A stretch of DNA of 43,912 nt from an uncultured Acidobacteriota bacterium (GTDB taxonomy: Bacteria > Acidobacteriota > Vicinamibacteria > Vicinamibacterales > UBA2999). This document shows, piece after piece, positions 1,018-18,270 of the stretch. The translations under genes and the position numbers were made by a program. Each line of letters starts with the position of its first letter. Position 1 is the first letter of the stretch. The stretch spans positions 1-43,912 of the forward strand of contig CADEFD010000028.1 of NCBI GenBank assembly GCA_902826515.1. Direction: 5' to 3'. A model generated the notes under the pieces. That model did no database searches. It saw only the letters and a program-made list of their open reading frames with translations, and had not been told where the DNA came from.

Positions 1018-2196
1018 ATGGTGGTCGGCGTCGACGCCACCTGCTGGGCCAACGGGCGGGGGTACGGACGCTTCACGCGTGAACTGCTGCCGGTGATGGT
1101 GGCCGAGGCGCCGTCGTGGCGCTTCCGCTGTTTCGTCGATGCGGCGGCCCGCGCCACCTTCGATCTCGCGGCGCCGAACGTCGAGGTGGTGGAGGTCGCG
1201 CAGTCGGTCTCCCCCACCGCCGCCGCTGCCGCCGACGGCAACCGCTCGCCCTTCGACATGCTGCGGCTGACCCGCGCCGTCGCCGCGCACCCGGCCGACG
1301 TGTTCTTCTCGCCGTCGGTCTACACCTACTTCCCGCTGCCTCCGGGCATCCGCTCGGTCATCACGATCCACGACGCCATCGCGGAACGGTTCCCGCACCT
1401 GACCCTGCCGAGCCCGCGGGCGCGCCTCTTCTGGAAGGCGAAAGTCTCGCTCGCCGTGTGGCAGGCCACGCTCGTGCTCACCGTGTCGGAGTTCTCGGCC
1501 AACGAGATCGAGGAAGTGATCGGCGTGCCGCGGCGGCGTCTCCGCGTGGCCGTCGAGGCGCCGTCGCCGCACTACCGGCCCAGTGCGACCGCGGCCGACA
1601 CGGCGGCCGCGGCAGCGCGGCTGGGCCTGCCGCCCGACGCCCGCTGGATCACGTACGTGGGCGGCTTCAGCCCGCACAAGAACGTGCATCTGCTGGCCGA
1701 AGCGCACGGGCGGCTCTTCGCGCGCCTCGGCGACGCCACGCCGTGGCTCGTGCTGGTCGGCAAGCTGTCGGGCGATCCCTTCCACGGCGCGCAGGGGCAG
1801 ATTCGCGAGGCCATCGCGAAGTCCGGCAGCGCGCCGCGGGTGCTATGGCCGGGTTTCGTCTCGGATGAGGACCTGCGGCACCTGCACACGGGGGCCGTTG
1901 CCCTGGCGCTACCCTCGATGAATGAAGGCTTCGGGCTGCCGGCCGTGGAAGCCGCGGCCTGCGGCTGCCCGGTCGTCGCGACGACCGCCAGCCCCCTGCC
2001 GGGGCTGCTCGCCGGCGGCGGGTGTTTTGTGGCGCCCGGCGATATCGACGGCCTGAGCGCGGCGCTCCTGACGCTCACGACCGACGAGCCCGCCCGCGCC
2101 GCCATGGGCGCCACGGCGCTGGCCCGCGCATCGCAGTTGTCGTGGCGGGCCTGCGCCAGGGCCACGATGGCCGCGCTCGAGGAAGCGGCGCGATGA
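1018..2196 (+). CDS. Glycosyltransferase family 4 (GT-B fold)
   Basis: A 392-residue retaining GT-B glycosyltransferase. The N-terminal acceptor domain carries a glycine-rich loop (GRGYGRFTRELLP, residues about 13-25). The C-terminal nucleotide-sugar domain has VGGFSPHKNVHLL and then the family signature NEGFGLPAVEAAACGCPVV with the E-x7-E pair. No signal peptide is seen, so it is presumably cytoplasmic and acts at the inner membrane on a lipid-linked or activated acceptor. The ATG at 1018 follows GGGGAG by 8 bases, a good ribosome site. It sits 3 bases after the FAD oxidoreductase, and its TGA overlaps the ATG of the next glycosyltransferase (ATGA), so the genes are translationally coupled. 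The sugar and acceptor are unknown. Confidence 0.92.
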   Translation: MVVGVDATCWANGRGYGRFTRELLPVMVAEAPSWRFRCFVDAAARATFDLAAPNVEVVEVAQSVSPTAAAAADGNRSPFDMLRLTRAVAAHPADVFFSPSVYTYFPLPPGIRSVITIHDAIAERFPHLTLPSPRARLFWKAKVSLAVWQATLVLTVSEFSANEIEEVIGVPRRRLRVAVEAPSPHYRPSATAADTAAAAARLGLPPDARWITYVGGFSPHKNVHLLAEAHGRLFARLGDATPWLVLVGKLSGDPFHGAQGQIREAIAKSGSAPRVLWPGFVSDEDLRHLHTGAVALALPSMNEGFGLPAVEAAACGCPVVATTASPLPGLLAGGGCFVAPGDIDGLSAALLTLTTDEPARAAMGATALARASQLSWRACARATMAALEEAAR

Positions 2197-3422
2197 GCCT
2201 GCGCATTGCCTCGCTCACGACGTTCTACCCGCCCTACAACTTCGGCGGCGACGGCATCGACGTGCAGCGCACGGCGCGGGTGCTGGCCGGGCTGGGCCAC
2301 CAGGTCACGGTGATCCACGACACCGACGCCTACCGCAGCCTCACCGGCGGCGATCCGCCGGCGGTCGCCCCCGACCCGCTCGTCGAGGTGATCGCGCTGC
2401 GCAGCGAGTCGCCGCGGCTCTCGACGCTGCTCACCCATCAGCTCGGCCGGCCGGTGCTGCAGCGCGGCGCGCTCGCCGAACTCGACCGCACGCGGCAGTT
2501 CGACGTCGTGCTCTTCAACAACATGTCGCTCGTGGGCGGACCAGGGCTGCTGCACTTCGGCGGCGACGCGGCGCGGATCTACGTGGCGCACGAGCACTGG
2601 CTGGTCTGCGAGTCGCACGTGCTGTGGCGGCACAACCGTGAGGCGTGCCTCGGCCGCGAGTGCCTGCGCTGCGTCATGAACCACAAGCGGCCGCCGCAGC
2701 TCTGGCGCTACACCGGCGCCCTCGACCGCGCCCTCGGCCACGTGGACGCGTTCGTCGCCCGCAGCGAATTCAGCCGCGCGCAGCACGCCCGCTTCGGCTT
2801 CCCGCGCGCGATGGACGTCGTGCCCTACGGCGTGCCGATGCCCGAGGCGCCCTACGACGGTCCGTCGCCGCATCCGCGCCCGTACTGCTTCTTCGCCGGG
2901 CGTCTCGAACCCATCAAGGGCGTCGAGGACCTCATCGACGTCTTCACCGGCGACACCGGCCCGGATCTCGTCGTCGCCGGCGAGGGCACGCTCAGCGAGG
3001 CCCTGCGGGCGCGCGCGGCCGGTCATCCCCGCGTGCACTTCGTGGGCCGCCTGCCCTTCGAGCGGCTCGCCCCCTACTACCGTCACGCGCTCGCGTCGCT
3101 CGTGCCGTCGAAGGGGTTCGAGACATTCGGCATGGTCGTCATCGAAGCGCTGGCGCAGGGCACGCCGGTCATCGCGCGGCGGCTCGGTCCGCTGCCCGAG
3201 ATCATCGAGGCCACCGGCGGCGGCCGCACCTTCGACACGCTCGACGAGCTGCGCGCGCACATCGACGCCTGCGCGGCCGATCCGGAGGCGGCGCGGGCGC
3301 AAGGCGCGCGCGGCCGCATCGCCGCGCGGGCGCGCTTCAATCCCGACACGGTCACGGCGCAGTTTGTCGCCATCATGGAACGTGAGCGCGCGCGGAAACA
3401 TGACGCGGCCAGGGTGAGTTGA
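2193..3422 (+). CDS. Glycosyltransferase family 4 (second in cluster)
   Basis: A 409-residue GT-B glycosyltransferase. It starts MSLRIASLTTFYPPYNFGGDG, the usual N-terminal strand plus glycine loop of GT4 enzymes. The C-terminal half has FFAGRLEPIKGVEDLI (donor-domain start) and the E-x7-E block KGFETFGMVVIEALAQGTPV. The frame is open further upstream, but ATG 2193 overlaps the previous stop as ATGA and removes an implausible Arg-rich extension, so I take it as the start. A cysteine-rich stretch around residues 140-165 (CESHVLW, CLGRECLRC) is unusual for GT4 and could bind metal or be structural. Its stop overlaps the next start by one base (TGATG), so the cluster is a tight operon. Donor and acceptor are unknown. 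Confidence 0.92.
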   Translation: MSLRIASLTTFYPPYNFGGDGIDVQRTARVLAGLGHQVTVIHDTDAYRSLTGGDPPAVAPDPLVEVIALRSESPRLSTLLTHQLGRPVLQRGALAELDRTRQFDVVLFNNMSLVGGPGLLHFGGDAARIYVAHEHWLVCESHVLWRHNREACLGRECLRCVMNHKRPPQLWRYTGALDRALGHVDAFVARSEFSRAQHARFGFPRAMDVVPYGVPMPEAPYDGPSPHPRPYCFFAGRLEPIKGVEDLIDVFTGDTGPDLVVAGEGTLSEALRARAAGHPRVHFVGRLPFERLAPYYRHALASLVPSKGFETFGMVVIEALAQGTPVIARRLGPLPEIIEATGGGRTFDTLDELRAHIDACAADPEAARAQGARGRIAARARFNPDTVTAQFVAIMERERARKHDAARVS

Positions 3423-4204
3423 TGCGCGCCATCCTCACCTATCACTCGATCGATGCCTCCGGTTCGCCGATCTCGGTGGCGCCCGACGCCTTCGCGCGCC
3501 ATGTCGCGTGGCTCGGCGGCGGCCACGTGTCGGTCGAAAGCCTCGCCGCGATCACCCAGGGCGGCGACTGCGCGGCAGACGGCCGCGACCGCGTGGCCCT
3601 GACCTTCGACGACGCGTTCGAGAACTTCGGCACGGTGGCCTGGCCGCAGCTGCGCGCGGCGGGGCTGCCCGCGACCGTGTTCGTCGTGAGCGGGCACGTG
3701 GGCGGCACGAATCGCTGGGGCGGCGCGGCGGTGCCGGGCATTCCGGAGTTGCCGCTGCTCACCTGGGACGCGCTCGGCGCGTGCGCGGCGGCCGGCGCCG
3801 AGATCGGCGCCCACTCGCGCACGCACCCGCATCTGTCGCGCACCGCGGCGGCGGCGCGGCACGAGGAACTCGCCGGCTGCCGCGACACCATCGCGGCGCG
3901 GCTCGGCGTGGTGCCGCAGTCGTTCGCGTATCCCTACGGCGACTGCGACGCGGCGGTCGTGCGCGACACGGCGGGTGTCTTCGCGCGGGCGTGCACGACC
4001 GAGTACCGGCAGGTCGCCGTCAGCGATTCCGTGCACCAGCTGCCGCGCCTCGACATGTTCTACTTCCAGGCCGCTGCGGCTCTCGCCGACTGGGGCCGGC
4101 CGGCGTTTCTGCGCAGAATCGCGATGCGCCGCGCCGCGCGCGCGGTGCGCCAATGGTGGACGGCGCCGAAGAGCAGTAGCTCCACGCGAGCGGAGAGCTT
4201 ATGA
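3422..4204 (+). CDS. Polysaccharide deacetylase (NodB-type, CE4)
   Basis: A 260-residue NodB homology domain protein, expected to remove N- or O-acetyl groups from a glycan using a divalent metal. Motif 1 is LTFDDAFENFG (catalytic base plus metal Asp, residues about 60-70). Motif 2 is IGAHSRTHPHLS (the two metal His residues). Motif 3 is SFAYPYGDCD, in place of the usual RxPY. There is no clear signal peptide: the N terminus MRAILTYHSID begins directly with the first strand, as in deacetylases that work inside the cell or are exported by other means. ATG 3422 overlaps the preceding stop by one base; a TTG one codon earlier is possible. With the two glycosyltransferases upstream it probably trims or tailors the sugar they build. 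Confidence 0.9.
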   Translation: MRAILTYHSIDASGSPISVAPDAFARHVAWLGGGHVSVESLAAITQGGDCAADGRDRVALTFDDAFENFGTVAWPQLRAAGLPATVFVVSGHVGGTNRWGGAAVPGIPELPLLTWDALGACAAAGAEIGAHSRTHPHLSRTAAAARHEELAGCRDTIAARLGVVPQSFAYPYGDCDAAVVRDTAGVFARACTTEYRQVAVSDSVHQLPRLDMFYFQAAAALADWGRPAFLRRIAMRRAARAVRQWWTAPKSSSSTRAESL

Positions 4205-12199: not shown

Positions 12200-13411
12200 C
12201 TATCGCGCCGCCGGCGACGGCTCGCCCGGTCCGATCTCGTAGACGTGCACGACGGGCTCGCGGCTCGCGGTCACGTAGACGCGCCGCTTCGCCGGGTCGT
12301 AGACCGCGCCGCGCATCTGGGCGTCGCCCGTGCCGCCGCTCATCTCGGTGAGCGTCCACGTGGCGTAGGGCTTCACGCTCCACGGCGCCTTGCGGCCGTT
12401 CTTCACGGCCACGAGATCGTTGGCGTCGTAGGCCCACACCATGTGGCGATACGGGAAGCCGTGCGGGCCCTTGTCTTCGACGGTCGGGTCGTAACACCAG
12501 TCGGTGCCGAGCGGATGCGGCGTCAGGTGTTTCTTCGGGTCGGTCGTGCCCTCGCCGTAGCAGTAGCCCGTGCCGTGGCGGCCGATGAAGAGCACCGAGC
12601 GCGTGCCCTGCGGAAACGCCACGCCGCCCACCATCGTCACGCTGCTGAAGAGATCGTTGCCGAAGTCGTAGGGGCCGAGCGTCTGATGTTCGTCGGGATA
12701 CCCCACGAGCATCTTCGAGGCCGCCTTCTTCTTCGTGCCCACCTCGTCCGGATCGAACACGCTCACCGACGGCCCGTAGCTCGAGCGCGAGATGATCGAG
12801 ATGCAGCACTGGCCGGTGAGCGCCGGACCGCCGAGCAGCGCGCGCCATTCTTCGGGGATGACGCCCATGTAGCCGGCCACCATGCCGGGCCGGTCGTTGC
12901 CGACCTGGAAGGGCCCCTTGATGCCGGCCACCGTGGTGCCGACGAAATGGCTCTTCGACACGTTGTGCCCGGCATCGTAGGTGGCGTAGGCACTGGTGAT
13001 GAGGCGGTTGTTCCACCACAACGCGCCGCCGAGCATCTTGGCATTGGGATCGCTCGGGTCGAGGGCGGCCAGATTCGGCACCTCGATGCACGGCTCGAGG
13101 ATGCGGCCGCGCTGCCCCGGTTCCGCGATCGAGACGACGGCCAGGTGCACGTTGTAGAGGCACGAGTAATACAGCGTCGTGCCATCGGGCCCGAGGCCGA
13201 GCGCGTTGCCGCCGTAGCGGATGGTCGCGCCGGCGCCGTCGTCGGGCGGCAGCGTGAACGCGCCGAGATACCGCATCCCGCCGCCCTGGATGAGCGGAAG
13301 TGACGCGGGCGAGGCCCCCGGCACGCCGGGCGCCTGCGCGCGGGGTGAGGCCCCGGCCAGTGACCAGGTCACGGCCGCGACGGCCAGACACACCTTCAAC
13401 AGCTGCGACAT
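12200..13411 (-). CDS. Secreted protein of unknown function, beta-propeller-like
   Basis: 403 residues from ATG 13411, chosen because a GGAG lies about 7 bases upstream and because it leaves a clean Sec signal peptide (MSQLLKVCLAVAAVTWSLAGA). Further in-frame ATGs at 13423 and 13435 would lengthen the n-region. The mature protein has repeated short beta motifs with aromatic residues (YGGNALGLGPDGTTLYYS, SVLFIGRHGTGYCYGEG, PFRHMVWAYDANDL-like). These suggest a propeller fold, and the C-terminal AVYDPAKRRVYVTAS is typical of a propeller blade. Several Cys (CLYN, QCCIS, YCYGEG, DWCYD) would fit disulphides in the periplasm. I do not recognise a named family. It is convergent with tRNA-Leu and divergent from the signalling operon. 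Confidence 0.75.
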   Translation of the reverse strand: MSQLLKVCLAVAAVTWSLAGASPRAQAPGVPGASPASLPLIQGGGMRYLGAFTLPPDDGAGATIRYGGNALGLGPDGTTLYYSCLYNVHLAVVSIAEPGQRGRILEPCIEVPNLAALDPSDPNAKMLGGALWWNNRLITSAYATYDAGHNVSKSHFVGTTVAGIKGPFQVGNDRPGMVAGYMGVIPEEWRALLGGPALTGQCCISIISRSSYGPSVSVFDPDEVGTKKKAASKMLVGYPDEHQTLGPYDFGNDLFSSVTMVGGVAFPQGTRSVLFIGRHGTGYCYGEGTTDPKKHLTPHPLGTDWCYDPTVEDKGPHGFPYRHMVWAYDANDLVAVKNGRKAPWSVKPYATWTLTEMSGGTGDAQMRGAVYDPAKRRVYVTASREPVVHVYEIGPGEPSPAAR

Positions 13412-13542
13412 GGGACGCTCCATGGGTCTGTTCATGATGCGCCCGCCTGCGCGGCGCCCGCCACGACTTTCGTGCAACATCTGCGGGTGCGACAACCCGC
13501 CGCACCTACCCGCCGGCCGGGCTGGAGCCGAAACAGCACAGG

Positions 13543-15789
13543 ATGGGACTCGTCGTGAAGGTTCGCCTGCCGTTTCGCCTTGGCTTCGCCAGGCCGCGGC
13601 CCGCGAGCCCGCCGCCTGCGGACGCCGCCGTCGCGACAGGTCCGGACGTGCCGGTAGCCGACGCCGCCCACGGAGTCGCTGCGCCCCCGACGGGCGGCAC
13701 GATGGTGGCCGCCTCGACCGACGTCCCGCGTGCGGCTCCCGCCGCCGTCGCTCCTCCGACGGAGTTCGCGCCGCCTCCAGACGAACGTGCGGTGGACGAA
13801 GCCTCGTCCACCCGGGTGTGGCTCGCCTACACGTCGGCGCTCGCCTCCCGCGCCACCACGCTCGAGGACGCCGCTCTGGCCGCGCTCGAGGGCCGCCTCG
13901 ACACCGGGCCCCGGCGCCGCGCCGCGCGCGAAACCCACAAACTCGCCACCTCGCTGTGGCTCGTCGAGGCGCGTGAGGCCGCCCGCCTGGCCTGGGAGGC
14001 GGCCGGGCTGCTCGACACCGGCACCCTCCTCGGGACCGCGAACGCGCTGCGTCTCTCGCAGATCGTCGAGACGCTGCACAAGTCGCTGCGCACGCTGCCG
14101 CCGCCCGAGGCGCTCTCGCCGGCCGGCCGGCCGACCGCGCCGTACCTGCTCGTCGTGGACGACGACGAGGCCCTCGCGCGCGAACTGCCGATCGAAGCGG
14201 CGGTGCGCGGCTGGCGCGCCAAGGTGGTGCGTCATCTCGGCGAACCCATCGAGGACCAGGCCGCGGTCATCGTGCTCGGCCCCGACGTGCTCGGTGATGC
14301 CGACGCCGTGGCGCGCACACGCCTGCTCGCCGCGCATCCGGAGGCGGTGCTCGCGGCGCTGGCGTCCGGGCCGTCGCTGCTCGAACGCACCGGCGCGCAC
14401 GGATTGCCGGCAACGCGCACGCTGGCCAGGCCGATCGCGCCGGCCACGCTCGTAGACGAAGCCATCGATCTGCTGCGCCGCCGCCAGGCCGCGGTGCCGA
14501 CAATCGTCGTCGGCATCACGGATCCGGTGCTGCGCGAAGCGGCCCGCCGCCAGCTCGCCGGCCTCGGCACGATCGTCGAGGCGCACGGCCACGGCGAAGC
14601 GGTCTGGAACGCCGTGACGCAGATGCGGCCAGAACTCTGCGTGCTCGACGAAGCCAGCGCCGGCGGCGCCGCCCTCGACCTGCCGCGCGCCATGCGCCGC
14701 GAGTGGGATGTGGCGCCGACGAGCGTGGTGCTGCTCACGCGGTCCGGCGACGACGCCACGATGGCCCGCGTCGCCGCGGCTGGTGTGGACGACTGGCTGC
14801 CCGCGGTGGCGGCGCCGTCGCTGCTCGCCGCGACCGTGCGCAACCGCCTCGACCGCGCCAGTACGCAGCGCCTCGCCGCCGACCTCGACCCGGCCACGCG
14901 CCTGCCGCACCTGCGATCGGTCGTGCCCGTCATCGAGCGCATGGTGGCAATTGCGCGCCGCTACAACCACGCGTTGTCGCTCGTCGTGGTGGAAGTGGAC
15001 GGCATCCGCGAACGGCGCGCGGCCCGCGACGACGAGACGGTGGACCGGCTGTCGCAGCTCCTCGGCCGGCGGCTCGCCCGCGCGTTCCGCGCCGAAGACC
15101 TGGTCGCCCATGCCGCCCCCGGACGCTTCGTGGTGGCGGCCTTCGGCATGAAGTCGGAGGACGGCGTGCAGCGCATGGCGGAGATGCTCGAGAGCTTCCG
15201 CGAGCAGGCCGTCGAAGGTGCAGACCACGTGCCCGTCGGCGCCTCCTTCAGTGTGGGCCTCGCGCAGATCCGGCTCGACGGGCCAGACGGCGCCACGCTG
15301 CTGCGCGCCGCCGAAGGCGCGCTCGCCACCGCGCAGCAGCACGGCGGCAACCGCATCGAGGCGGCGAGCCGCGGCGAGACGTCGCGCATCGAGTGGACCG
15401 CCGATGCGCTCGTCATCGACGCCGACGCGCCGTTTGCGGCGCTCGTCGAACACGCGCTCGAAACGCGCGGCCATCGCGTGCGCACGATCGGCGACGGCCG
15501 CGAGGCGCTCGACCTGCTCACCCACCCGGAAGCGCCGGTGCGGGCGCGGCTGCTCGTGCTGGAGCTGGGCCTGCCAGGCCTCGACGGCCTGACGCTGCTC
15601 GGCCAGCTCGCCGAAGCCGGCGTGCTCAAGACCTCGAAGGCCGTCGTCGTGACGACGCGGTCGGTCGAAGCCGAGATGATCAAAGCCATGGAGCTCGGCG
15701 CGGTGGACTACATCACCAAGCCGGTCAGCCTGCCGGTGCTCATGCGGCGCCTGCGCTCGGCCCTCGTCGGAGGCCCGGGTGTCGCCTGA
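13543..15789 (+). CDS. Multidomain signalling protein: HPt-like, three receiver-like domains and a degenerate GGDEF
   Basis: 748 residues. Order: a disordered Ala/Pro-rich N terminus (1-90); an HPt-like four-helix segment (90-185) with RETHKLATSL, His132; receiver-like 1 (200-315) with LVVDDDEA but Gly246 where the phosphoacceptor Asp should be and Arg in place of the Lys; receiver-like 2 (320-435) with Asp369 but no Lys (DDWLPA); a GGDEF fold (448-607) whose signature is APGRF instead of GGDEF; receiver 3 (615-745) with Asp626/Asp628, Thr705 and Lys726 intact but Glu674 in place of the phosphoacceptor Asp. By known rules the GGDEF domain should not make c-di-GMP and receiver 3 may be locked in an active-like state. 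Its GTG-started neighbour overlaps the stop, and the operon ends in a glycosyltransferase, so it probably controls polysaccharide synthesis. Confidence 0.88.
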   Translation: MGLVVKVRLPFRLGFARPRPASPPPADAAVATGPDVPVADAAHGVAAPPTGGTMVAASTDVPRAAPAAVAPPTEFAPPPDERAVDEASSTRVWLAYTSALASRATTLEDAALAALEGRLDTGPRRRAARETHKLATSLWLVEAREAARLAWEAAGLLDTGTLLGTANALRLSQIVETLHKSLRTLPPPEALSPAGRPTAPYLLVVDDDEALARELPIEAAVRGWRAKVVRHLGEPIEDQAAVIVLGPDVLGDADAVARTRLLAAHPEAVLAALASGPSLLERTGAHGLPATRTLARPIAPATLVDEAIDLLRRRQAAVPTIVVGITDPVLREAARRQLAGLGTIVEAHGHGEAVWNAVTQMRPELCVLDEASAGGAALDLPRAMRREWDVAPTSVVLLTRSGDDATMARVAAAGVDDWLPAVAAPSLLAATVRNRLDRASTQRLAADLDPATRLPHLRSVVPVIERMVAIARRYNHALSLVVVEVDGIRERRAARDDETVDRLSQLLGRRLARAFRAEDLVAHAAPGRFVVAAFGMKSEDGVQRMAEMLESFREQAVEGADHVPVGASFSVGLAQIRLDGPDGATLLRAAEGALATAQQHGGNRIEAASRGETSRIEWTADALVIDADAPFAALVEHALETRGHRVRTIGDGREALDLLTHPEAPVRARLLVLELGLPGLDGLTLLGQLAEAGVLKTSKAVVVTTRSVEAEMIKAMELGAVDYITKPVSLPVLMRRLRSALVGGPGVA

Positions 15790-16825
15790 TGCGCTCGTCC
15801 GGATGGTGCTCTTCAGCGAGTCGCTGATGCTCGTCATCGGCGTGCTGCTGCTCGTCGCGCACGCCGCCTGGTGGTGGTGGTACGACCGCTGGAGCGCCGG
15901 GCGCGTCGATGCCGTGCGGGCGTCACTGCGCGAGGCGCTCGCCGGCGGCGACCGGAACCCCGGCTTCACGCGCGACTTCGTGCGGCTGCCGATGCGCCTC
16001 CAGATCTACCTGCTCGGCGAACTCGCGCCCCACCTCACCGGCGTCGAACGCCAGTCGCTGCGCCGTCTGGCCCAGCGTGCCGGCCTGCTCGCCAAGGCCG
16101 AGCGGCTGTGCCGCAGCTGGTTCTGGTCGCGGCGGCTCTTCGGCGCGAAGATCTGCACGCTCGTCGGCCATCCGGCGGGCGTCGTGCTCACGCTGCTCAC
16201 CGACCGCAATCCCTCGGTGCGCGCCCAGGCCATCGAGTGGGCGCTCCACCGGCCGGATCCCGCCGTGGTCGAGGCGCTGCTCGGCATGCTCGGCGACCGC
16301 GACGGCCGGTGCCGGTTCGCCGCGCAGGACACGCTCGTGAAGCTCGGCCACGCCGCCGTCGCGCCGCTCATCGGTTATCTCGCGACCGCCGACCACGACG
16401 GCACGCTCGGCGCGCTCGAAGTGGCCCTCACGATGGCCGACGCGCGGCTGCTGGCGCCGGCGACGGCGCTGGCCGGCGCGGCCAGTCCGGCCGTGCGCGC
16501 CCGCGCCATCGCCCTGCTCGGCGCGCTCGGCAGCGCGGCGGGCGTGGCCATCGTCGAACGCGCCCTCGACGACGGGGCCGCCGTCGTGCGGCAATCGGCA
16601 CTGCGCGCCCTCGGCGGCCTCGGCCACTGGCCCGCCGCCTCGCGTGTGGCGAAGCTCGTGCACGATCCGGTGTGGGACGTGCGCCGCCAGGCGGCGCTCT
16701 GCCTGCGCGCGTTCGGGGCGCCGGGCGCGATCTTCCTGCGCCAGCTGCGGAACTCGGACGATCCCGTGGCCTCGTCGGTGGCGCGCTATGCGCTCGACCT
16801 CTCGGCGATCGGCGCCACGGCATGA
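15779..16825 (+). CDS. Membrane-anchored HEAT-repeat protein
   Basis: 348 residues from GTG 15779, which has a very good ribosome site (GGAGG at 15769-15773, spacing 5) inside the end of the upstream gene. A single N-terminal membrane segment (residues about 12-32, LMLVIGVLLLVAHAAWWWWY) is followed by a soluble domain of helical HEAT-like repeats, with repeating units such as NPSVRAQAIEWAL, DGRCRFAAQDTLVKLG, SPAVRARAIALLGALG, AAVVRQSALRALGGLG and VWDVRRQAALCLRAFG. HEAT repeats are protein-binding scaffolds and no enzymatic motif is visible. Its stop overlaps the ATG of the GT2 gene (ATGA). It probably sits at the membrane and couples the upstream signalling protein to the downstream synthase. 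Confidence 0.9.
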   Translation: MSPDALVRMVLFSESLMLVIGVLLLVAHAAWWWWYDRWSAGRVDAVRASLREALAGGDRNPGFTRDFVRLPMRLQIYLLGELAPHLTGVERQSLRRLAQRAGLLAKAERLCRSWFWSRRLFGAKICTLVGHPAGVVLTLLTDRNPSVRAQAIEWALHRPDPAVVEALLGMLGDRDGRCRFAAQDTLVKLGHAAVAPLIGYLATADHDGTLGALEVALTMADARLLAPATALAGAASPAVRARAIALLGALGSAAGVAIVERALDDGAAVVRQSALRALGGLGHWPAASRVAKLVHDPVWDVRRQAALCLRAFGAPGAIFLRQLRNSDDPVASSVARYALDLSAIGATA

Positions 16826-18270
16826 CCTACGCGCTCGCGGTCGCCATCGAGGCCCTCATGGGGCCGGTCGAGGCCGCCGTCCTCGCCTACTTCGTGCTCA
16901 TCAACGTCTGCTACACGGGCCTCCTCGTGGCGGCGGTGTTCGAGATGCGGCGCACGCGCAACGAAGCCATCGGCATCAACGACCACATCGTCGTGGGCTC
17001 GCGCCTCGCGCCGACGATCAGCATCCTGGCGCCGGCCTACAACGAAGAAGCCACCATCACTTCCAGCGTGCAGTCGCTGCTCACGCTCGACTACCCGAAC
17101 CTCGAGGTGGTCGTCATCGCCGACGGCTGCAAGGACCAGACGATCGACGTCCTCAAGGCGGAGTTCTCGCTCGTCGAGGTGCACCGCGCCTACGCGCCGC
17201 GCGTGCACACGAAAGGTGTCGTGGCGCTCTACCGGTCCGTCAGGCACGCCAACCTCGTCGTCGTCGACAAACTGAACGGCGGCAAAGCCGACGCGCTCAA
17301 CGTCGGCCTGAATCTCGCGAGCGGCGAACTGGTCTGCGCCATCGACGCCGACACGCTCATCGAACGCGGCGCGCTCGTGCGTCTGGCGCGGCCGATGATC
17401 ATCGACCCGGAGGTCGTGGCAACCGGCGGCACCATCCGCCCGGTCAACGCCGTGCCCACGAAGAACGGCCAGGTGCTCGACGTCACCGTGCCGCGCAACA
17501 TGCTGGCCGGCGTGCAGGTGGTCGAGTACCTGCGCGCCTTCCTGCTCGGACGGCTCGGCCTCAACCGCCTCGGCGGCAACCTCATCATCTCGGGCGCCTT
17601 CGGCCTCTTCCGCCGCGAGCCGATGCTCGAGGCCGGCGGCTGGCTGCACGACACCGTGGGCGAAGACATGGAGCTCGTGGTGCGGCTGCGGCGCCTCGGC
17701 TACGAGCAGGGCGGACCGAGCAAGGTGATCTTCGTGCCCGACCCCACGGCGTGGACCGAGGTGCCCGAGTCGTGGGGCGTGCTCGGCCGGCAGCGCGACC
17801 GCTGGCACCGCGGCCTGACCGACACGCTCTGGCGACACCGGCGCCTCATCGGCAATCCGCGCTACGGGGCTATGGGCCTCATCGTCTTCCCCTACTTCGT
17901 GCTCGTCGAGCTGCTGGCCCCGGTGGTCGAAGCCCTCGGTCTGGTCGTGCTCGCCGGCTCGCTTGCCGTCGGCCTCATCGACCGCACGTTCGCGCTGCTC
18001 TTCTTCGCGCTGGCGATCGGCATCGGCCTCATCCTGAGCGTGGCGACGCTGCTGCTCGACCAGGCGGCGTTCATGCGCTTCAAGCGGCCGCGCGACCTCG
18101 CGTGGCTCGTGTGGTGGAGCGTGGCCGAGAACCTCGGCTACCGGCAGATGACGGTCTACTGGCGGCTGCGCGGCCTGTGGAAGTACATGCGCGGACGATC
18201 GGATTGGGGCGCGATGACGCGCAAGGGCTTCGCCACGAAGCCGCCCGTCTCGACGGCGCGTCCGAGTTAG
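16822..18270 (+). CDS. Processive glycosyltransferase family 2 (PgaC/cellulose synthase-like)
   Basis: 482 residues. Membrane segments are at about 20-40 and, after the catalytic domain, about 350-415. The catalytic domain has the GT2 start ILAPAYNEEATI, Asp101 (IADGCKD), the DAD triad at 175-177, the acceptor Glu-Asp at 281-282 (VGEDMEL) and QRDRW at 324-328, which is the Q-x-x-R-W signature of processive synthases such as hyaluronan, cellulose and poly-N-acetylglucosamine synthases. A polymer is therefore likely; which sugar is not clear from the sequence. No PilZ domain is seen, so any nucleotide control must come from partners. It is translationally coupled to the HEAT-repeat gene. Confidence 0.92.
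   Translation: MTYALAVAIEALMGPVEAAVLAYFVLINVCYTGLLVAAVFEMRRTRNEAIGINDHIVVGSRLAPTISILAPAYNEEATITSSVQSLLTLDYPNLEVVVIADGCKDQTIDVLKAEFSLVEVHRAYAPRVHTKGVVALYRSVRHANLVVVDKLNGGKADALNVGLNLASGELVCAIDADTLIERGALVRLARPMIIDPEVVATGGTIRPVNAVPTKNGQVLDVTVPRNMLAGVQVVEYLRAFLLGRLGLNRLGGNLIISGAFGLFRREPMLEAGGWLHDTVGEDMELVVRLRRLGYEQGGPSKVIFVPDPTAWTEVPESWGVLGRQRDRWHRGLTDTLWRHRRLIGNPRYGAMGLIVFPYFVLVELLAPVVEALGLVVLAGSLAVGLIDRTFALLFFALAIGIGLILSVATLLLDQAAFMRFKRPRDLAWLVWWSVAENLGYRQMTVYWRLRGLWKYMRGRSDWGAMTRKGFATKPPVSTARPS

Follow-up and report, generated by a model that had tools for sequence, protein, structure and literature searches.

The window analysed here, a stretch of 43,912 nucleotides (contig C28, CADEFD010000028.1) from the 5.85 Mb genome of an uncultured Acidobacteriota bacterium of the order Vicinamibacterales (GCA_902826515.1), carries on its forward strand an operon of three overlapping genes, in which a glycosyltransferase of family 2 (GT2) is preceded by a HEAT-repeat protein and by a multidomain signalling protein, hereafter the regulator. 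The data support a polysaccharide synthase that is translationally coupled to a catalytically degenerate regulator. On the model that we favour, which as a whole we consider evenly poised between right and wrong, the synthase would be gated post-translationally by a regulator whose control has shifted from phosphorylation to a locked-on receiver combined with sensing of cyclic diguanylate (c-di-GMP). Open reading frame (ORF) calls place the three genes as follows.

13543..15789, + strand: regulator, 748 aa (amino acids), ATG start; probable HPt-REC-REC-GGDEF-REC architecture (REC, receiver), catalytically degenerate throughout
15779..16825, + strand: HEAT-repeat protein, 348 aa, GTG start within the 3' end of the regulator gene, 11-bp overlap
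16822..18270, + strand: processive GT2 polysaccharide synthase, 482 aa, ATGA overlap with the HEAT gene

Pfam recognises the HEAT protein as HEAT_2 (9e-22), the GT2 as Glyco_tranf_2_3 (8e-25), and the regulator as both Response_reg (E=6e-25, with two stretches passing) and GGDEF (PF00990, E=1.9e-8), where a score of 34.7 bits against the cut-off of 23.8 places the latter domain within the GGDEF fold family. Here we define a cassette as a receiver-bearing regulator, a HEAT gene and a GT2 gene in that order on one strand; such cassettes are present in the window, in 4/5 genomes of its genus, and in relatives from the phylum and from plasmids. Within the genus, the three-gene order recurs together with G246, E674 and APGRF of the regulator in the remaining operon-bearing genomes (L031-L033), and all four members have the overlap of the regulator gene with the HEAT gene. 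The parts of the regulator that bear on its function are listed below.

13813..14112, + strand: probable HPt domain with His132, aa 91-190, supported by a blastp match to the HPt domain that Pfam recognises in the sister locus L151
14143..14478, + strand: receiver 1, aa 201-312, Gly246 at the phosphoacceptor position
14497..14853, + strand: receiver 2, about aa 319-437, which retains Asp369 but neither the acidic pair nor the conserved Lys
14878..15360, + strand: degenerate GGDEF domain, aa 446-606, PF00990, compared in an alignment with 20 other GGDEF domains from this genome
15088..15099, + strand: RxxD motif R516-A-E-D519 at the position of the inhibitory site (I-site), kept in 4/4 genus members
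15115..15129, + strand: APGRF replacing GG(D/E)EF in the alignment, diguanylate cyclase active site gone
15403..15768, + strand: receiver 3, aa 621-742, the receiver conserved across the cassette and the most constrained domain of the regulator
15562..15564, + strand: codon for Glu674, which replaces the phosphoacceptor Asp of receiver 3

An earlier note on this DNA had described three genes coupled by overlaps (GTG in the stop region, ATGA), a membrane HEAT protein followed by a polymer synthase, and a first protein with Gly246, Glu674 and no GGDEF motif. The ORF calls, the Pfam assignments together with a transmembrane helix and processive motifs, and a residue check (246=G, 674=E, APGRF) bear out each of these observations, to which we add the middle one of the three receivers, the probable HPt domain, the retained RxxD motif and the position of the helix in the HEAT protein.

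The best solved relatives of the window's GGDEF domain are diguanylate cyclases. In all four genus members, the GG(D/E)EF motif reads APGRF, the metal-binding Asp is replaced by Glu, and the region corresponding to DxLT..NR is altered. On these residues we rejected the regulator as an active diguanylate cyclase, and the finding supports the prediction that it should not make c-di-GMP. By comparison, all degenerate GGDEF domains that belong to the cassette retain the RxxD motif, both in the genus (4/4) and among relatives from the order (12/12). The 12 sequences from the order share a mean identity of 35% and only five invariant columns, two of which are the Arg and Asp of RxxD; by our own calculation, the chance that five random invariant columns among ~133 would include both is ~1 in 900. 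In 11/12 of these domains the metal-binding Asp position is occupied by Arg. By analogy with PelD, YdaK and BcsE, the degenerate domain probably senses c-di-GMP. In 10/12 of the order's degenerate domains (L102, L095, L104, L105 and others), a conserved His, in many cases part of DxxH, also lies close to where the GGDEF motif was lost.

None of the three receivers combines the Asp, acidic pair and Lys of a phosphorylatable receiver, with Gly246 in the first, the acidic pair and Lys gone from the second, and Glu674 in the third, which supports the prediction that the regulator is not open to phosphorylation by the usual mechanism. The assignment of the N-terminus as an HPt domain is probable and was accepted through the sister protein of L151: blastp aligns the two with E=5e-5, the score of 88 exceeds a shuffled mean of 32.7 (z=9.5, reached by 0/1000 shuffles), and His132 falls on the His of the L151 domain. 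This region is helical in low-confidence structure models, and its His is kept in 3/4 genus members, with Tyr in L032. Pfam, a profile-profile comparison against the order's HPt domains and a fold search of the PDB all failed to identify an HPt domain in the window's regulator.

Across the four genus members the ratio of nonsynonymous to synonymous substitution rates (dN/dS) lies between 0.03 and 0.32 in every domain of the regulator, all of which are under purifying selection. Receiver 3, which carries Glu674, is the most constrained (0.035-0.09) and receiver 2 the least (identity down to 60%, dN/dS up to 0.32), while the linker of aa 1-84 is the only loosely constrained part of the protein. 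Pseudogene decay was rejected given dN/dS values well below 1 in each domain, and selection of this kind indicates that the degeneration is a maintained state.

The full-length regulator is confined to the window's genus (4/5 genomes), and a maximum-likelihood tree of the GT2 places L151 as sister to the window clade (100/96), with a second cassette of the genus joining next (100/98). The regulator of L151, the locus of the window's nearest GT2 relative, is a canonical HPt-REC protein with a complete active site, so the Asp-to-Glu change at 674 is derived. Cassette receivers nearly all keep the Asp; Glu replaces it in the window clade and in L189, and Asn in L163 and in Emticicia. On the sequences, a regulator whose receivers are all degenerate therefore belongs to one genus as a derived condition and is not a property of the cassette. 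The minus-strand locus L189 (G472:C92) encodes an HPt-REC-degenerate GGDEF-REC protein whose last receiver has Glu for Asp, apparently independently of the window's genus, and the Asn residues of L163 and of the Emticicia plasmid locus L183 represent further losses of the phosphoacceptor.

Two other accounts of the regulator have to be weighed against the favoured model. According to the first, which was the view of the earlier note, the regulator is a ligand-free structural scaffold that has lost all its signalling sites and merely assembles the HEAT protein and the GT2 at the membrane. The lack of a working phosphoacceptor site in three receivers, the loss of the GGDEF active site and the Tyr in place of the HPt His in L032 all fit this account, but it does not explain why RxxD survived throughout the genus and the order while the remainder of the domain drifted, or why the GGDEF and HPt domains are under strong purifying selection; we regard it as unlikely, though to be taken seriously. 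According to the second, an ordinary phosphorelay persists in which the synthase is driven by phosphorylation of HPt His132 or of Asp369 in receiver 2, Glu674 being incidental. Although His132 and Asp369 are present in 3/4 and 4/4 genus members, respectively, and the relays of relatives are intact as a rule, receiver 2 is without the acidic pair and Lys and is the domain under least constraint, and L032 has replaced the HPt His, all of which make a surviving relay improbable.

The HEAT protein has a single N-terminal transmembrane helix (aa 4-35), and the GT2 has hydrophobic segments near both of its ends (aa 3-42 and 348-418), which, together with the three motifs below, identify it as a processive enzyme.

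17344..17352, + strand: DxD motif D175-A-D177, invariant in 21 aligned sequences
17659..17667, + strand: GED motif, aa 280-282, with E281 and D282 invariant in the same alignment
17791..17805, + strand: QxxRW motif QRDRW, aa 324-328, the processive-synthase signature, likewise invariant

Its best NCBIfam match is PgaC/IcaA, at 129.9 bits against a cut-off of 422.3, which leaves it outside that family.

The cassette is widely distributed. GT2 proteins of the window's type were found in 21/162 genomes of the order and in 73/347 genomes of Acidobacteriota. In 38 of the 40 Acidobacteriota loci that we read, a HEAT gene lies directly upstream of the GT2; a receiver gene directly precedes the HEAT gene in 23/40 (12 families) and is found further up the same cluster in five more. 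Four of these five sit ~0.9-1.2 kb up, and in both that were scanned a YaiO barrel gene lies between. Within the order, the receiver belongs to the same cluster in each of the 22 testable loci of the three main types, and most HEAT-GT2 boundaries are tight, the genes either overlapping (ATGA/GTGA) or lying a few bases apart. A chance neighbourhood of the three genes was rejected by this recurrence.

In most Acidobacteriota cassettes, the regulator is an ordinary phosphorylatable receiver. Thirteen loci of the order carry the HPt-REC-degenerate GGDEF-REC form, among them L106, which has lost the GGDEF part, and the HPt His and receiver Asp are kept in 13/13 save for the one last-receiver Glu of L189. 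The second cassette of the genus, which also occurs in a further genome of the family, encodes a small regulator that consists of a receiver alone, with its Asp intact. In the window genome, this second receiver-HEAT-GT2 cassette is split over two contig ends (G000:C212:6524-8379 and G000:C18:5-1411; L099, L100). At L103 (4535-5908, TPR-YaiO) and at L106 (5346-6818), the regulator and HEAT genes are separated by a gene on the opposite strand.

Beyond Acidobacteriota, the evidence comes from plasmid records that were searched by tblastn with the GT2, after which twelve neighbourhoods were read. In most of the twelve, a HEAT gene is annotated beside the GT2, on plasmids of haloarchaea, Alphaproteobacteria, Legionella, Deinococcus, Bacteroides and Planococcus, and one was recognised by profile on a Paenibacillus plasmid, such that plasmid-borne HEAT-GT2 relatives span Alpha- and Gammaproteobacteria, Bacteroidota, Deinococcota, Bacillota and haloarchaea. 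Seven of the twelve clusters include a receiver gene: in haloarchaea (Haloarcula, Salinirubellus, Halosolutus) and Alphaproteobacteria (Mesorhizobium, Erythrobacter, Devosia) it accompanies HEAT and GT2 genes, whereas in Emticicia a gene without a name takes the HEAT position. In Mesorhizobium and Devosia, an HPt gene adjoins the GT2. Taken with the loci of the phylum and the order, these counts show that the first gene is not commonly separate from the other two, a separation that the earlier note had named as speaking against its proposal.

The plasmid neighbourhoods also bear on the polymer. In Halosolutus gelatinilyticus (L213, 2510-8559), genes for a receiver, a small unknown protein, HEAT, GT2, a nucleotidyltransferase and glmS form one run, which suggests an amino-sugar polymer. 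Aided by the glmS beside this cassette, our guess is that the product of the window's GT2 is similar to poly-N-acetylglucosamine. Genes for a nucleotide-sugar dehydrogenase and an epimerase adjoin the HEAT-GT2 pair of Legionella, which suggests that the polymers differ between cassettes.

From this body of evidence we infer how the operon may work. The GT2 would be a membrane-embedded processive synthase that makes an exopolysaccharide and is regulated post-translationally, with the HEAT protein, anchored by its one helix, in contact with it as a scaffold and regulatory subunit. The regulator would dock on the HEAT protein through its C-terminal receiver and thereby set the activity of the synthase. 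In the widespread and probably ancestral form, two-component control would run from a histidine kinase through HPt, receiver and HEAT protein to the GT2. In the window's genus, Glu674 of the docking receiver would mimic phosphorylation and probably hold an active-like state, the two other receivers would serve as scaffold, and the remaining controllable input would probably be c-di-GMP bound at the RxxD of the dead GGDEF domain. Phosphomimetic activity of an Asp-to-Glu substitution has been described for the receiver of NmpR (PMC6211767). Of the earlier note's reading, the pairing of a synthase with an enzymatically dead regulator is supported for this operon, but pseudo-signalling is not supported as a property of the cassette at large, where the receiver is nearly always intact. 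Its statement that control is not exerted by c-di-GMP made in place likewise agrees with the lost active site, but c-di-GMP may be sensed, as RxxD is kept wherever the cassette has a degenerate GGDEF domain. A broader and more tentative proposal, which we put somewhat below even chances, is that REC-HEAT-GT2 is an undescribed family of two-component-gated synthases of bacteria and haloarchaea with HEAT as the adaptor, and that the window's genus switched to c-di-GMP by way of a Glu-locked receiver.

Several observations weigh against the favoured model. RxxD is found in 19/20 of the other GGDEF domains of the window genome, and its retention could therefore be partly inherited or structural. 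Where PelD has R402, a Met aligns in the window; Arg residues lie close by, and there is no clear counterpart. Asp-to-Glu substitutions fail to activate some receivers. An AlphaFold2 model of the full regulator built from four close sequences had a mean pLDDT (predicted local distance difference test) of 49, and was not used for fine claims. Finally, 10/40 of the phylum loci have a HEAT-GT2 pair with no upstream receiver gene on that strand, which indicates that the receiver is not indispensable. These ten loci would also suit the notion that the regulator is an unrelated diguanylate cyclase-like gene that lies upstream by chance while HEAT and GT2 act alone, but we consider this very improbable given the gene overlap throughout the genus, the adjacent receiver in 12 families and the same gene order in haloarchaea.

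We found no exporter gene in the window's own operon. YaiO outer-membrane barrels occur inside the cluster at several loci, and the sole YaiO-type match of the window genome, a possible exporter, lies in a 471-aa open frame on another contig (G000:C118:9901-10413; L187, L188); we found no cassette gene in the surrounding 12 kb. Two further features of the window are set apart from the operon:

1018-4204, + strand: possible polysaccharide cluster ~9 kb upstream of the operon, with genes for two GT4 glycosyltransferases and for a polysaccharide deacetylase
12200-13495, minus strand: secreted-looking protein of 431 aa, divergent from the operon, for which Pfam gave no match

Among the mechanisms that control polysaccharide synthases directly, the best known acts through c-di-GMP. 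Archaea are generally thought not to use this messenger. If a receiver does act on the synthase through a HEAT protein from Acidobacteriota to haloarchaea, this would constitute a second route besides c-di-GMP, and the operon may show the direct switching of polymer secretion by a signalling protein. The window's genus would then represent a natural experiment in which the regulator has been rewired while the HEAT protein and synthase have been retained. For many genes labelled merely 'HEAT repeat protein' or 'glycosyltransferase family 2', the cassette also points to a function that could be tested.

The literature that we searched, which covered few subscription papers, holds no description of a REC-HEAT-GT2 cassette, and to that extent the earlier note's impression of a system without precedent stands; degenerate GGDEF domains that control a synthase, on the other hand, are known from PelD, YdaK and BcsE. 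PelD of the Pel system of Pseudomonas aeruginosa likewise has a degenerate GGDEF domain with RxxD kept, is encoded in an exopolysaccharide operon and gates synthesis post-translationally (PMC8461298), but is a GAF-GGDEF protein with transmembrane helices that lacks receivers, HPt and a HEAT partner, and its R402 has no evident equivalent in the window. YdaK, from the ydaJKLMN operon of Bacillus subtilis, is an operon-encoded degenerate GGDEF receptor that keeps its I-site and is associated with the putative exopolysaccharide synthase YdaM/YdaN (PMC7064775), whereas receivers are not known in YdaK and a HEAT protein is not described in ydaJKLMN. In the cellulose system of E. coli, BcsE has a degenerate GGDEF-like domain whose I-site binds c-di-GMP and which targets a GT2 synthase complex (PMC8461298), but its partners are BcsQ and BcsR and its architecture is different. 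PleD shares the REC-REC-GGDEF core, with an NCBIfam match of 5e-19 and PleD structures among the fold matches; it is, however, an active diguanylate cyclase controlled by phosphorylation, whereas the window's regulator has lost the cyclase and phosphoacceptor residues and gained a C-terminal receiver. For the GT2, the poly-N-acetylglucosamine synthases PgaC/IcaA are the nearest curated family and have the same catalytic motifs, but the window's protein scores far under the family cut-off and is paired with HEAT in place of PgaD/IcaD. Collectively, control of exopolysaccharide synthases by degenerate GGDEF domains is already known, whereas the REC-HEAT-GT2 cassette, of which the window's operon is a local form, is apparently undescribed.

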